From a virus, in the IMG/VR virus record IMGVR_UViG_3300017971_000820, positions 1-21,780 of that record: a DNA stretch of 21,780 nucleotides. One strand, given 5' to 3'. Position 1 is the first letter of the stretch, and every line of letters starts with the position of its first letter. Both the position numbers and the translations under genes were made by a program. The notes below the pieces were generated by a model. The model ran no database searches, had not been told where the DNA came from, and saw only the letters and a program-made list of their open reading frames with translations. Below, in pieces: positions 13,358 through 21,780 of this stretch.

Positions 13358-13460
13358 CAGTGAGTGAAAAATTGACATGTTACCGTGACGCCTCCGTGGC
13401 ACACGGTTAACGAGTTAAACCGGATGCCACGGAGGCGTCACGGCAGAGAGTCACTCACTG
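13358..13460. repeat. Long nested inverted repeat at the convergent gene junction
   Basis: A perfect 19-nt inverted repeat pairs 13383-13401 with 13425-13443. Inside it CGGTTAAC pairs with GTTAAACCG with one bulged A, giving a hairpin of about 27 bp with a tiny loop. Outside it CAGTGAGTGA (13358-13367) pairs with TCACTCACTG (13451-13460). On the minus strand the hairpin is followed by a TTTTT run (revcomp of 13368-13372), so it may terminate the leftward genes, whose last stop codon lies in the right arm. The plus strand has no T-run after it. Confidence 0.7.
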
Positions 13461-13650
13461 ACGTGATATCGGCGGGGCCCAGGAGGCTTTTATCACCACC
13501 GCAAATAAGAAAGTACCGCCGAGACGGAGTCCGCATGCCATAGCTGGCTCTTGGTGGGCGGGGATCATCGAACAAGTAGCTAAAGTAGATCACCAGACCT
13601 CCGGTCTGCTGACTACTTAGCTTTATCGTTACCTTGCCCTTCGATTCCAT
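13438..13650 (-). CDS. Small unknown phage protein (third gene of leftward cluster)
   Basis: The frame encodes 70 residues from ATG 13650 (MESKGKVTIKLSSQQTGG) to TGA 13438. A TTG at 13677 would add nine residues, but neither start has a strong ribosome site. The start overlaps the Lar-like gene by 22 nt, implying translational coupling. The sequence is beta-like at the N-terminus and basic in the middle (DDPRPPRASYGMRTPSRRYF). I do not recognise it. Its stop lies inside the right arm of the long inverted repeat, so the last codons are read just before that hairpin forms. Confidence 0.55.
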   Translation of the reverse strand: MESKGKVTIKLSSQQTGGLVIYFSYLFDDPRPPRASYGMRTPSRRYFLICGGDKSLLGPADITSVSDSLP

Positions 13651-13853
13651 GCGGTCGTGCCTAGACGTGTCTCGCAATCGCAGTTGTACCAGTTGATGCA
13701 GCGGATATGACTAGCGCACACAACTTCGGCCGCACTTCCGCAGAAGGGGCAAGGTAACAAGTCAGGCAACGCGGACGCTTGCTCCTTGCCAGCCGTACAG
13801 CTATCGCAGTAGCCGCCTGTTCCACACACGCCACCATCTTCTGTGCATTTCAT
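13629..13853 (-). CDS. Lar-like restriction alleviation family zinc-ribbon protein
   Basis: The 74-residue protein carries the Lar-type signature LLPCPFCGSAAEV (Cys35, Cys38), then Cys52, Cys58 and Cys60, and ends TAWNRRAR, the usual AWN-R-A terminus of this family. The N-terminus adds Cys3, Cys10, Cys16 and Cys19, possibly a second metal knuckle. Family members include Rac prophage Lar, which lowers type I restriction of unmodified DNA; many relatives are untested. A ribosome site (AAAGGAA) lies 8-10 nt before ATG. It is the middle gene of a three-gene minus-strand cluster opposite to all neighbours, as expected for accessory cargo. An anti-restriction role is inferred. Confidence 0.75.
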   Translation of the reverse strand: MKCTEDGGVCGTGGYCDSCTAGKEQASALPDLLPCPFCGSAAEVVCASHIRCINWYNCDCETRLGTTAWNRRAR

Positions 13854-13873
13854 CGCGCCGGTTCCTTTAATCG

Positions 13874-14131
13874 TTAGCCAGCCTGTGACCCAGCTTCATC
13901 CAAGAACGCTTGGATGTCATCGGCCACCCAAAACACCCCTACCTTATTGGTGTACCGCCCTATGATGCGCCAAGCGTGTGTCGGCATCTGAAACTTCTCC
14001 ATCTCGTGATCGCTGTTTCTCAGCACTCGGTATCGTCCGGAAAATCCGTAGACAATGTAGAAGGTTCCCGGGAGATCTTCCTGATGTCGCAGCAGGAATT
14101 GAGCAATATGTTCGGGGCTTTGATCTTGCAT
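13874..14131 (-). CDS. Small unknown phage protein (first gene of leftward cluster)
   Basis: The 85-residue protein has a good ribosome site (GAAGGAG, 7 nt before the ATG at 14131). It begins MQDQSPEHIAQFLLRHQEDL and contains a beta-like centre (TFYIVYGFSGRYRVL) and a C-terminal helix (VADDIQAFLDEAG). It looks like a small soluble alpha/beta protein and I do not recognise the family. It is transcribed away from the replication operon. Its neighbour in the same cluster is Lar-like, so a host-takeover or anti-defence role is possible but only by association. Confidence 0.65.
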   Translation of the reverse strand: MQDQSPEHIAQFLLRHQEDLPGTFYIVYGFSGRYRVLRNSDHEMEKFQMPTHAWRIIGRYTNKVGVFWVADDIQAFLDEAGSQAG

Positions 14132-19252: not shown

Positions 19253-19553
19253 AAAACAGATCGAGAAACGTGTTTGTGACTATGCCAAGTCCAAGGGATT
19301 CCTGGCGTACAAGTTCACCAGTCCGAATCGGGCATCGGTACCTGACCGGCTGTTTATCTCTGAAGACGGGTTCTGCTTTTTCATCGAGTTCAAAAGGAAG
19401 GGCGGGAAGGTTACGGAAGGTCAGAAGCGCGAGATGCAGCGACTCGAGGATCAGAGGGTCGTGGTGTATGTGGTAGACAACATCGATACCGGGAAACACA
19501 TCATTGATGCAATCAGCATGGGTATTATCCCGGAATTGGGGTCGATGTGCTAA
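19245..19553 (+). CDS. VRR-NUC domain nuclease
   Basis: The 102-residue protein is a stand-alone VRR-NUC domain. It has an N-terminal helix with acidic residues (LEKQIEKRVCDYAKSKGF), SVPDRLF (Asp34), then FFIEFKRKGGKVTEGQ (Glu48, Lys50), the D...ExK active site with the KxGG.....Q tail of the family. VRR-NUC proteins, including the FAN1 nuclease domain, act on branched DNA; phage single-domain versions cut Holliday junction-like structures in some tested cases. It is encoded between polymerase and SNF2 helicase, the usual arrangement. Resolution of recombination intermediates during replication is inferred. Confidence 0.85.
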   Translation: MLEKQIEKRVCDYAKSKGFLAYKFTSPNRASVPDRLFISEDGFCFFIEFKRKGGKVTEGQKREMQRLEDQRVVVYVVDNIDTGKHIIDAISMGIIPELGSMC

Positions 19554-20953
19554 CACCTGACAACCTTCACGGCTACCAGAAGAAGGCTGTCAACTTCCAA
19601 GCCACCCACTCGGCTTCCGCCCTATGGCTCGATATGGGGCTCGGCAAAACCGCCATCACCCTCACCAGCATCGCCCATCTCATTAACACGGGCTTTCTCA
19701 ACGGTGTCGTCATTGTCGCCCCTATCCGCGTTTGCCGGCTGGTGTGGCGTCAGGAAGCATTGAAGTGGGATCACACCAAGCATCTGCGATTCAGTATGGT
19801 GGTGGGCACCAAGGATCAGCGCACCCGGGCATTGCTCCGGGATGCCGATGTGTACCTGATCAACTACGAGAATCTGCGCTGGCTATCTGAAACCCTGCGG
19901 ACGTACTACCTGAAGAAGGACAAACCGCTTCCGTTTGATGGAGTGGTCTGGGATGAAATCTCCAAGATGAAGAACAGCGCAACCCACCGAGTCCGCGCTG
20001 TCAAAAAGATCCTGCCCCATTTCAAATGGACTACCGGGTTGACTGGCACCCCGGCCGCCAATGGCTACAAGGATCTCCACGGGCAATACCTTGTCCTGGA
20101 TCAGGGACAGCGGTTGGGTACGGACAAGACAGCCTTCATGAACCGCTTCTACTACAGCGAGGGTGCGTACAAGCTCAAGGCGTTCGATGACACCGAGAGT
20201 ACCATCAAGGCCTTGATCGGGGACATCACGCTGCAGATGTCCGCGGAGGACTATAACCCGTTGCCGGATCTGATCATCAATGACGTGATTGCCGATCTGC
20301 CCAAGAAGCTCAGGGAGAAGTACAACCAACTGGAAAAGCAGTTCTTCTTCGAACTGGACAACGGCACCGGTGTGGAGGTCTTCAACAAGGCCGCCCTCAC
20401 CAACAAGTGTCTGCAGTTCAGCAATGGCAATGTGTACCCGGTATCCGGGATGCCGATGTGGGAGACGATCCATGATCTGAAACTGGATATGCTGGAAGAC
20501 ATCCTCGAGGAAGCGTCCGGGCAGCCGGTCCTTTGCTCCTATGCCTACCGGAGCGATGCCGAGCGGATCATGGAGCGGTTCAAGAAACTGCGCCCGATCA
20601 ACCTGACCGACTGCAAGTCTGAAAAGTCCTTGCTGACAGCCATGGCTCGCTGGAAGGCGGGTGATTGCCCTCTGATGATCGGTCATCCCGCCAGCATGGG
20701 ACACGGGGTAGACGGGCTCCAGGACAACGGGCACATCTTGGTGTGGTATGGGTTGAACTGGAGCCTTGACCTGTATGACCAGTTCAACGCCCGGATCCGC
20801 CGGCAAGGACAAGGGGCACCCGTCATCTGCCATCGGCTGCTGATTGGGGACACCCTTGATCAGGCTCAGGCGTTTGCCTTGGACGATAAGGCCACCACGC
20901 AAACAGCGCTTCGCTCCGCGATCAAACAGTACCGGGAAGCCCGAGGGGTTTGA
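19547..20953 (+). CDS. SNF2-type helicase/translocase
   Basis: The 468-residue protein starts at GTG 19547, overlapping the VRR-NUC stop by 7 nt. Motifs: HGYQKKAV (Q-like), Walker A DMGLGKTA (Lys34, Thr35), VVIVAP (Ia), Walker B WDEISKMKN (Asp136, Glu137), TGLTGTP (III), and in the second half MGHGVDGLQ and motif VI QFNARIRRQGQ (Arg416, Arg419). This two-RecA-lobe layout is the superfamily 2 SNF2/DEAD-like form found with VRR-NUC in many phages. It probably translocates on double-stranded DNA or remodels forks. The canonical VI form QxxxRxxRxGQ is complete, so the enzyme should be active. It is the last gene before the cassette region. Confidence 0.88.
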   Translation: MLTPDNLHGYQKKAVNFQATHSASALWLDMGLGKTAITLTSIAHLINTGFLNGVVIVAPIRVCRLVWRQEALKWDHTKHLRFSMVVGTKDQRTRALLRDADVYLINYENLRWLSETLRTYYLKKDKPLPFDGVVWDEISKMKNSATHRVRAVKKILPHFKWTTGLTGTPAANGYKDLHGQYLVLDQGQRLGTDKTAFMNRFYYSEGAYKLKAFDDTESTIKALIGDITLQMSAEDYNPLPDLIINDVIADLPKKLREKYNQLEKQFFFELDNGTGVEVFNKAALTNKCLQFSNGNVYPVSGMPMWETIHDLKLDMLEDILEEASGQPVLCSYAYRSDAERIMERFKKLRPINLTDCKSEKSLLTAMARWKAGDCPLMIGHPASMGHGVDGLQDNGHILVWYGLNWSLDLYDQFNARIRRQGQGAPVICHRLLIGDTLDQAQAFALDDKATTQTALRSAIKQYREARGV

Positions 20954-21006
20954 CATTGTTGAACGTGGGCTCTATGCTTGTTGTACGACATTATTGAGGG
21001 CTTTAG

Positions 21007-21075
21007 CACCGACTCGTTGGCATTGGTCTTTTAGTTACTGCCGTGTTCTGGGCGCTAGGCCAGGTATACACATAA
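21007..21075 (+). pseudogene. Truncated cassette gene remnant (C-terminal hydrophobic segment)
   Basis: The 120 nt after the helicase stop hold no intact gene. A 22-codon open stretch from 21007 ends in TAA 21073-21075 and encodes a hydrophobic tail with LVGIGLLVTAVFWALG, like a membrane helix. Its TAA lies inside the R''-like box of the attC-like site that follows, the usual position for a cassette gene stop. The same frame upstream has TGA and TAG stops and no plausible start. I interpret this as the 3' end of a cassette gene whose 5' part was lost; alternatively it is non-coding. Confidence 0.4.
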
Positions 21076-21124
21076 CGACCAGTCGGCAGCGGGCCGAAGG
21101 CTCCGCTGGCCGCAATGGTTAGGC
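21070..21124 (+). repeat. attC-like recombination site 1
   Basis: R''-like ACATAAC (21070-21076) and R' GTTAGGC (21118-21124, matches GTTRRRY) bracket a hairpin. TAAC pairs with GTTA. After an unpaired spacer, CGG pairs with CCG, then G109 (of 211xx) is extrahelical, then CAGCGG pairs with CCGCTG. The top closes with GCC-GAA-GGC and an extra T. This is the plan of integron attC sites (R box, unpaired spacer, L box with extrahelical base, variable end). The third R'' base is non-canonical. Confidence 0.8.
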
Positions 21125-21563
21125 GGTATTTCTATCTAACGGAGAGCAGATATGGGCGTAGAAAACAATGAATGCGTTGTGGCAACCACCTGGAATCGTG
21201 AAGCCATGATGAAAGTGCGAGAGTGGGTAAGCAAGCTGGATGCCGATGAGCATTCGTTGTTTGCGTTCCTCCCCAGTCTGATGAACAACAAAGAGACTGT
21301 GTTCCTTGCCCCTGACGGAAGCAAGAAGGGCTGGGATACCGCCAAGCAGGGCGAAGCCTTGCGAGACAGGTTTATCGAGTACCTGAGCGCCTTTGACTAT
21401 GATGATGGCAGTAGCCCATTTGATTGGGTGGAAGTCGGCTATGGGGAGTTTGGCCAGAAGGTGCTGCGCGGCAACAACGTGAACTGCTACTCGGACGAAG
21501 AGTACGCCGCCTAACGATTACCAACAGCGGCCCGAGGCACGAGGGTCGCGCTGATTGTGCTGG
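21119..21563 (+). mobile_element. Complete integron-type gene cassette (about 445 bp)
   Basis: Between the G/TT crossover points of the two attC-like sites lies one gene in plus orientation, starting 33 nt in and ending in the R'' box of its own attC. Strong support: R' at the cassette start (GTTAGGC, 21118-21124) is the exact reverse complement of R'' at its end (GCCTAAC, 21509-21515), as expected if both derive from one attC of the circular cassette. No integron integrase or attI is recognisable in the window, so this resembles an array without integrase (CALIN). Confidence 0.8.
21152..21514 (+). CDS. Cassette-encoded protein of unknown function
   Basis: The 120-residue acidic protein has GGAGA 7 nt before ATG 21152. 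It begins MGVENNECVVATTWNREAMM and contains EHSLFAFLPSLMNNKETVFL, a Gly/Lys-rich turn (APDGSKKGWDTAKQGEALR) and an Asp/Trp-rich part (YDDGSSPFDWVEVGYGEFG). It looks like a small soluble alpha/beta protein with no membrane segment or signal peptide. I do not recognise the family; cassette genes often have no known relatives. Its TAA stop is part of the R'' box GCCTAAC. Expression may depend on read-through from the replication operon, since no promoter is evident. Host-defence, toxin-antitoxin or surface roles cannot be distinguished. Confidence 0.75.
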   Translation: MGVENNECVVATTWNREAMMKVREWVSKLDADEHSLFAFLPSLMNNKETVFLAPDGSKKGWDTAKQGEALRDRFIEYLSAFDYDDGSSPFDWVEVGYGEFGQKVLRGNNVNCYSDEEYAA

Positions 21564-21569
21564 TTAGTT
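21509..21569 (+). repeat. attC-like recombination site 2
   Basis: R'' GCCTAAC (21509-21515) is a perfect RYYYAAC and R' is GTTAGTT (21563-21569, one mismatch to GTTRRRY). CTAAC pairs with GTTAG. After a spacer, CAA pairs with TTG, A at 21554 is extrahelical, then CAGCG pairs with CGCTG. The 17-19 nt top is the variable terminal region. The extrahelical base is three pairs into the L box, exactly as in site 1, although the sequences differ, so structure rather than sequence is conserved. Confidence 0.82.
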
Positions 21570-21593: not shown

Positions 21594-21780
21594 ATGGAAC
21601 ACTTCAACCAACTGACACCAGCCGAAGCGGAGCGCCTTGCCTTGCTGTCTGAGGAACTGGGAGAGGCGCAGCAGGCCATTGGCAAGATTCTCCGACACGG
21701 GTACGAAAGCACCCACCCGGAGGGAGGCCCGACGAACCGCGAGGCACTGATGCGCGAACTGGGAGACGTGCGGGCCGCGA
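21594..21780 (+). CDS. MazG-like pyrophosphohydrolase, N-terminal part (cut by window end)
   Basis: ATG 21594 follows GGAG (21584-21587) and opens a frame to the window end (62 complete codons). It begins MEHFNQLTPAEAERLALLSE and shows the MazG-type metal-binding motifs EELGE (Glu20, Glu21, Glu24) and ELGD (Glu55, Asp58), with the conserved IGKILRHGYESTHP between. All-alpha NTP pyrophosphohydrolases of this type hydrolyse (d)NTPs to monophosphates and are common in phages, including this short LTPAEAERLALL group. It lies 30 nt after the R' box of attC-like site 2, so it is probably the next cassette's gene. Substrate unknown; the C-terminus is outside the window. Confidence 0.75.
   Translation, partial: MEHFNQLTPAEAERLALLSEELGEAQQAIGKILRHGYESTHPEGGPTNREALMRELGDVRAA

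Follow-up and report, generated by a model that had tools for sequence, protein, structure and literature searches.

The end of this viral sequence raises the question of how structures resembling the attC sites of integrons came to lie directly behind a phage replication operon, and whether they delimit genuine gene cassettes. In the window analysed here, a 21,780-base virus record, structural genes are followed by a replication module comprising genes for an exonuclease, a ssDNA-binding protein, a DNA polymerase, a VRR nuclease and a SNF2 helicase. The SNF2-type helicase gene (19547..20953, plus strand; PF00176, E 2.3e-17; phrog_62, E 4e-124) is the last phage gene ahead of the array. Its stop at 20953 is followed, in order, by a spacer (20954..21069), a first attC site (attC1), a gene encoding 120 amino acids, a second attC site (attC2) and a truncated MazG-like gene; no homology to the spacer was found in L003, the closest relative, whose helicase is 78% identical. 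A DNA search of isolated phages gave no match. Between the structural and replication modules, positions 13438-14131 hold several short ORFs on the minus strand, and the sign of the GC skew switches within the same interval, which is possibly an early control region.

The two sites lie at 21070-21124 (attC1, ACATAAC...GTTAGGC) and 21509-21569 (attC2, GCCTAAC...GTTAGTT), each with its canonical polarity on the minus strand. With one mismatch tolerated per box, both show R'' (RYYYAAC) and R' (GTTRRRY) boxes, an L-box hairpin and unpaired spacers, as do all five sites of the longer array described below, and at each window site the paired L boxes contain one extra base. The preliminary description had proposed two attC-like sites enclosing a gene that ends within an R'' box, and we found its coordinates and boxes to be accurate: the core box GCCTAAC (21509..21515, plus strand) contains the TAA stop of the cassette 1 gene (21152..21514, plus strand), and a crossover would be expected there between TAA and C. 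This arrangement of stop codon and core is also seen in most viral cassettes. At the upstream end of cassette 1, the core box GTTAGGC (21118..21124, plus strand) is, as had also been recognized, the exact reverse complement of 21509-21515, a mark of site-specific insertion. The core box GTTAGTT (21563..21569, plus strand) belongs to cassette 2, whose gene, encoding a MazG-like nucleotide pyrophosphohydrolase, occupies 21594..21780 on the plus strand and is truncated by the window end. In the inverted reading set out below, attC1 belongs to cassette 1 and attC2 to cassette 2.

We evaluated these sites with a covariance model of our own, R1. Candidate attC sites (98) were taken from intI-carrying bacterial loci, mostly beta- and gammaproteobacterial, where they were found through chain complementarity and oriented by intI; six doubtful candidates were put aside, and R1 was built from 41 bacterial attC sites. 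Controls outside the training set, including phage TJE1, whose sites Qi et al. had assayed experimentally, were matched in the expected orientation, and the model is not very sensitive, as only one of the three TJE1 sites passes E 1. A home-made palindrome scan, which gave many chance matches in 80 relatives, was too unspecific to be used alone and was replaced by the covariance model. With all filters off, the two best R1 matches in the window are attC1, at 16.0 bits on the minus strand (E 0.04) versus 8.6 on the plus strand, and attC2, at 14.5 bits on the minus strand (E 0.09) with its plus-strand match absent from the list; a covariance check of the kind that the preliminary description had proposed thus places both sites at the top of the window, each of them marginal singly. 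The DNA fold of attC1 has a z of -3.15, and Rfam gave no match to an attC family at either of two thresholds. The array context is decisive, and it confirms that the window ends in two genuine integron gene cassettes, exchangeable units of the type by which antibiotic resistance travels between bacteria.

That context comes from one viral contig, L083, which we found by searching with the 120-aa protein and which matches the window at 99.98% over 4,828 bp, with one mismatch. L083 runs on for 5.7 kb, and with it the array counts five attC sites and an equal number of genes, followed by a short ORF and then by an 852-aa primase, so that the array lies between a phage helicase and a phage primase. 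The sites fall within 1.8 kb and have no intI nearby, and thus form a CALIN (at least two clustered attC sites, no intI nearby). All five are detected by R1, with scores from 30.8 bits (L083 5473-5534) down to 6.4 bits; as the scores at sites 3 and 5 are low (6.4 and 9.0 bits), some of the sites may be decayed. The boundaries of the cassettes are demonstrated by their cores, since head and tail carry perfectly reverse-complementary 7-mers in every one of the five, the mate of GTTAGTT being AACTAAC at L083 4930-4936. The distance from helicase to primase is 2,489 bp in L083 versus 82 bp in L003, and 97 to 354 bp in five further relatives with the same gene order, and R1 found no attC match in 80 relatives (1.04 Mb). 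The array is an insertion in one phage lineage with phage genes on both flanks, in agreement with the earlier placement of the cassettes in a replication operon after the SNF2 helicase gene. An 88-aa ORF at L083 6138-6404, between the last core and the primase, has no match in the 80 relatives; it could represent either a further, sixth insertion or a portion of the region around the terminal site.

The cassettes encode a phrog_11375 protein, the MazG-like pyrophosphohydrolase, a DNA methyltransferase-like protein and two small proteins. The cassette 1 protein (phrog_11375, E 3.7e-18; L083 4200-4562) shares 33% identity with proteins in 27 mycobacteriophage records and has a single distant match in plasmids; elsewhere the family is known in mycobacteriophages some 110 kb in size, an unusual range for a gene carried on a cassette. 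Cassette 2 is complete at L083 4642-4935, and its full-length protein matches phrog_4856 (E 2.3e-17); a search of solved structures found none for the MazG-like protein. In a defence-system library, cassette 3 matched methyltransferase-type entries weakly, and cassette 2 had a single marginal match. Homology supports the direction of the genes in cassettes 1 to 3, and a ribosome-binding motif is clear in four of the five cassettes (1, 2, 4 and 5), which have ACGGAG in common ahead of the start codon. Read in the direction of the operon, the cassette unit therefore consists of an attC site, a ribosome-binding motif, a gene, a TAA stop and the crossover point in the core.

The genes in this array run against the polarity of their attC sites. 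On the strand opposite the genes the five sites score 30.8, 16.0, 14.5, 9.0 and 6.4 bits with R1, and on the gene strand the same sites score, in that order, 3.4, 8.6, below 1.8, below 1.8 and 2.3 bits; where a cassette gene would be expected to follow attC polarity and be read from Pc, all five sites are opposite to their gene. A model-independent feature gives the same orientation, as a C precedes GTT in 91 of 92 bacterial sites and does so in the phage array (5/5) only if the array is read in reverse. A normal array starts with a bare core at attI and finishes with a full attC. Here five attC sites serve five genes, a full attC stands at the helicase (upstream) end and a bare core, GCATAA/CAGTG, is found only at the primase (downstream) end, from which it follows that the cassettes are inverted. 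Polarity did not figure in the preliminary description, and its account of the L box needs a corresponding correction: the extrahelical base is present, and on the strand read there it falls in L', both sites matching R1 on the minus strand.

We then asked how general the inverted layout is. Coding strands were called by codon usage, with training on separate sequences and with a second sample left untouched beforehand, and the calls depend on this codon model; calling by longest ORF was noisy and was abandoned in favour of codon scoring. The viral scan used a polar, gene-blind attC pattern that covers one attC sequence type, applied to IMG/VR contigs that may include some cellular DNA. The pattern occurs in at least 120 viral contigs (L220-L339), falling into 114 DNA clusters among the matches listed, and the first 80 of these contigs hold 336 R1 matches; read backwards, it has no match in 448 bacterial genomes. 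Counted by cassette, antisense genes outnumber sense genes 31 to 1 in viral contigs and 15 to 1 in the untouched set, versus 0 to 29 in bacterial intI-linked cassettes. Counted by contig, the viral ratio is 96 antisense to 6 sense among the matches listed and that of bacterial intI-linked loci 2 to 21 (p 1.9e-16), a contrast that the longest-ORF rule weakens (viral 28:14, bacterial 7:54). The same pattern in bacterial genomes gave 2 sense and 0 antisense, with few cassettes callable.

Several further observations accompany these counts. When 20 large proteins encoded on antisense contigs were tested, 14 matched phage families (among them portal, tail, tape-measure and replication proteins), and 62 of the 82 contigs having flanks, among the matches listed, have flanking genes mostly in the same direction as the cassette genes. 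In 33 of 46 antisense viral cassettes, no more than 8 nt separate the stop codon from the crossover, and the commonest form is exactly TAA/C. Relatives of the cassette genes in L182, L196 and L210 also lie in arrays whose attC polarity is inverted in the same way. Among phages with reported CALINs, the circular genome MW202573 is inverted (five R1 matches), PH101 is apparently inverted (two weak R1 matches), TJE1 has normal polarity by R1, and P12002L gave no R1 match. Inversion is thus the rule across other viral contigs, and its recurrence, like the polarity itself, is demonstrated. Six contigs (L231, L282, L295, L300, L313 and L334) have mostly sense coding near attC and are possible captured bacterial cassettes. 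Viral contigs often carry canonical attC sites: one narrow pattern is present in at least 120 of them, some with long arrays. Cassette arrays seem much more abundant in phages than the published count of 17 CALINs in 10,705 phages (Qi et al. 2023, PMC9892861).

A search for intI, which the preliminary description had called for, came back empty: TIGR02249 found none in the window, in L083 or in 36 relatives. Because both the window and L083 are incomplete records, this phage may encode an integrase outside them; a complete integron, with intI beside attI and an array, appears in neither fragment. Above the curated cutoff, intI occurs in 2 of 50 pattern contigs, L345 (G072, 26001-45760) and L346 (G099, 10001-29764), which may represent either complete integrons carried by phages or sequence from a host; the G072 intI is seemingly frameshifted. 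At their terminal end, 27 of 39 viral arrays have a G.CTA attI-like box at a fixed distance ahead of the terminal core, versus 13-15% expected for the motif, and such a box is present at 13 of 22 bacterial array heads. The L083 terminal site itself has a weak G.CTA box that fits the attI-like consensus poorly.

These findings are probably best explained if phages keep an integrase-less integron that host IntI, acting in trans, fills with reverse-gene cassettes, which the phage operon then reads. A host integron integrase would insert and exchange cassettes by joining folded attC strands to the site at the downstream end of the array. The attC hairpin fixes the polarity of insertion (PMC8946536), and joining at a downstream site would mean that cassettes always enter in one orientation. 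With the attI-like site at the downstream end of the operon, only reverse-gene cassettes would be expressed; selection would favour genes that the phage operon can read, and phages would accordingly keep a pool of cassettes whose genes oppose attC. Placed in a bacterial integron, a gene of this kind would point away from the Pc promoter, and the two pools would thereby be functionally separate. The inferred steps of this account are IntI activity in trans, expression, selection and isolation from the bacterial pool. A broader version, to which we give slightly less than an even chance, is that phages possess an integron world of their own, attI-bearing and integrase-less, stocked with reverse-gene cassettes by host IntI in trans and functionally isolated because a cassette that works in one pool would be silent in the other.

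The preliminary description had suggested that a phage had captured, or exchanges, cassettes. The cassettes are real and of integron type, and the nearest explanation to that view is that illegitimate or homologous recombination brought part of an ordinary bacterial integron array into a phage. The temperate phages M16-3 and Va_90-11-286_p16 do carry pieces of bacterial arrays, and the attC sequence types resemble proteobacterial ones. Against this, the genes here oppose attC polarity in five cassettes of five, bacterial intI-linked cassettes show no such case among 29, and the inversion recurs in 96 of the 102 viral contigs judged among the matches listed; "captured ordinary bacterial cassettes" is therefore not the best description, and we consider this origin quite unlikely. 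It is also unlikely, if somewhat less so, that the reverse-gene layout comes from an unsampled bacterial lineage with inverted cassettes, for which phages are mere carriers. The beta- and gammaproteobacterial bias of our sample leaves room for such a lineage, and reverse integrons are known from spirochaetes, among others, with intI as the turned part; however, in their proteobacterial sequence type the viral pattern attC sites agree with sites that have normal cassettes, and the few callable bacterial loci with the pattern were both sense.

Two further explanations are very improbable. One is a misassembly fusing the phage helicase to an integron fragment, in favour of which it can be said that the window and L083 may derive from related samples. 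Yet the junction is present in the second contig as well, with the single mismatch in 4,828 bp, other phages have the same layout, including the circular MW202573, and phage genes flank the array on both sides, with the primase after it, which makes a chimera at 20954 unlikely. Equally improbable are hairpins that serve as phage terminators or RNA elements and resemble attC by chance. Several sites fold no better than shuffled sequence, but chance does not readily account for perfect head-to-tail complementarity in five cassettes, for the preference of a bacterial attC model for one strand, or for the lack of matches in 1.04 Mb of relatives.

On the accepted view (PMC8946536), the strand selectivity of attC guarantees that a cassette joins attI in the orientation that Pc transcribes, and a large class of viral arrays with systematically reversed genes breaks this rule. 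Inverted viral arrays suggest that phages and bacteria have the recombination chemistry in common and gene pools that are separate. With them, the origin of cassettes, their possible transport by phages and the possible growth of arrays through the host integrase during infection become questions that can be tested, and tools or surveys that assume agreement between gene and attC may misjudge viral arrays.

Integrase-less phage arrays are not in themselves novel. Phage CALINs without an integrase have been reported in TJE1, PH101, P12002L and MW202573, and five of six phage attC sites tested recombine with attI1 (Qi et al. 2023, PMC9892861). Those CALINs resemble the array described here in having attC sites without intI, small accessory genes and DNA methyltransferases; the searched text of that study makes no mention of genes opposite attC polarity, and inverted phage cassettes were not found in the open PMC literature (preprints and subscription papers lay outside this search). 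Like class 1 and chromosomal bacterial arrays, the viral arrays have R and L boxes, an extrahelical base, head-to-tail complementarity and, in many cases, an attI-like end. In bacterial arrays, however, transcription from Pc at the attI end reads genes that share the polarity of attC, whereas in viral arrays the genes run against that polarity and the attI-like sites lie downstream. The reverse integrons of Treponema and others resemble the phage array in that the orientation of one component is reversed. In the Treponema type, intI has the reversed orientation with respect to the cassettes, whereas in the phage array, where the fragment records yielded no intI, each gene is reversed with respect to its own attC site.
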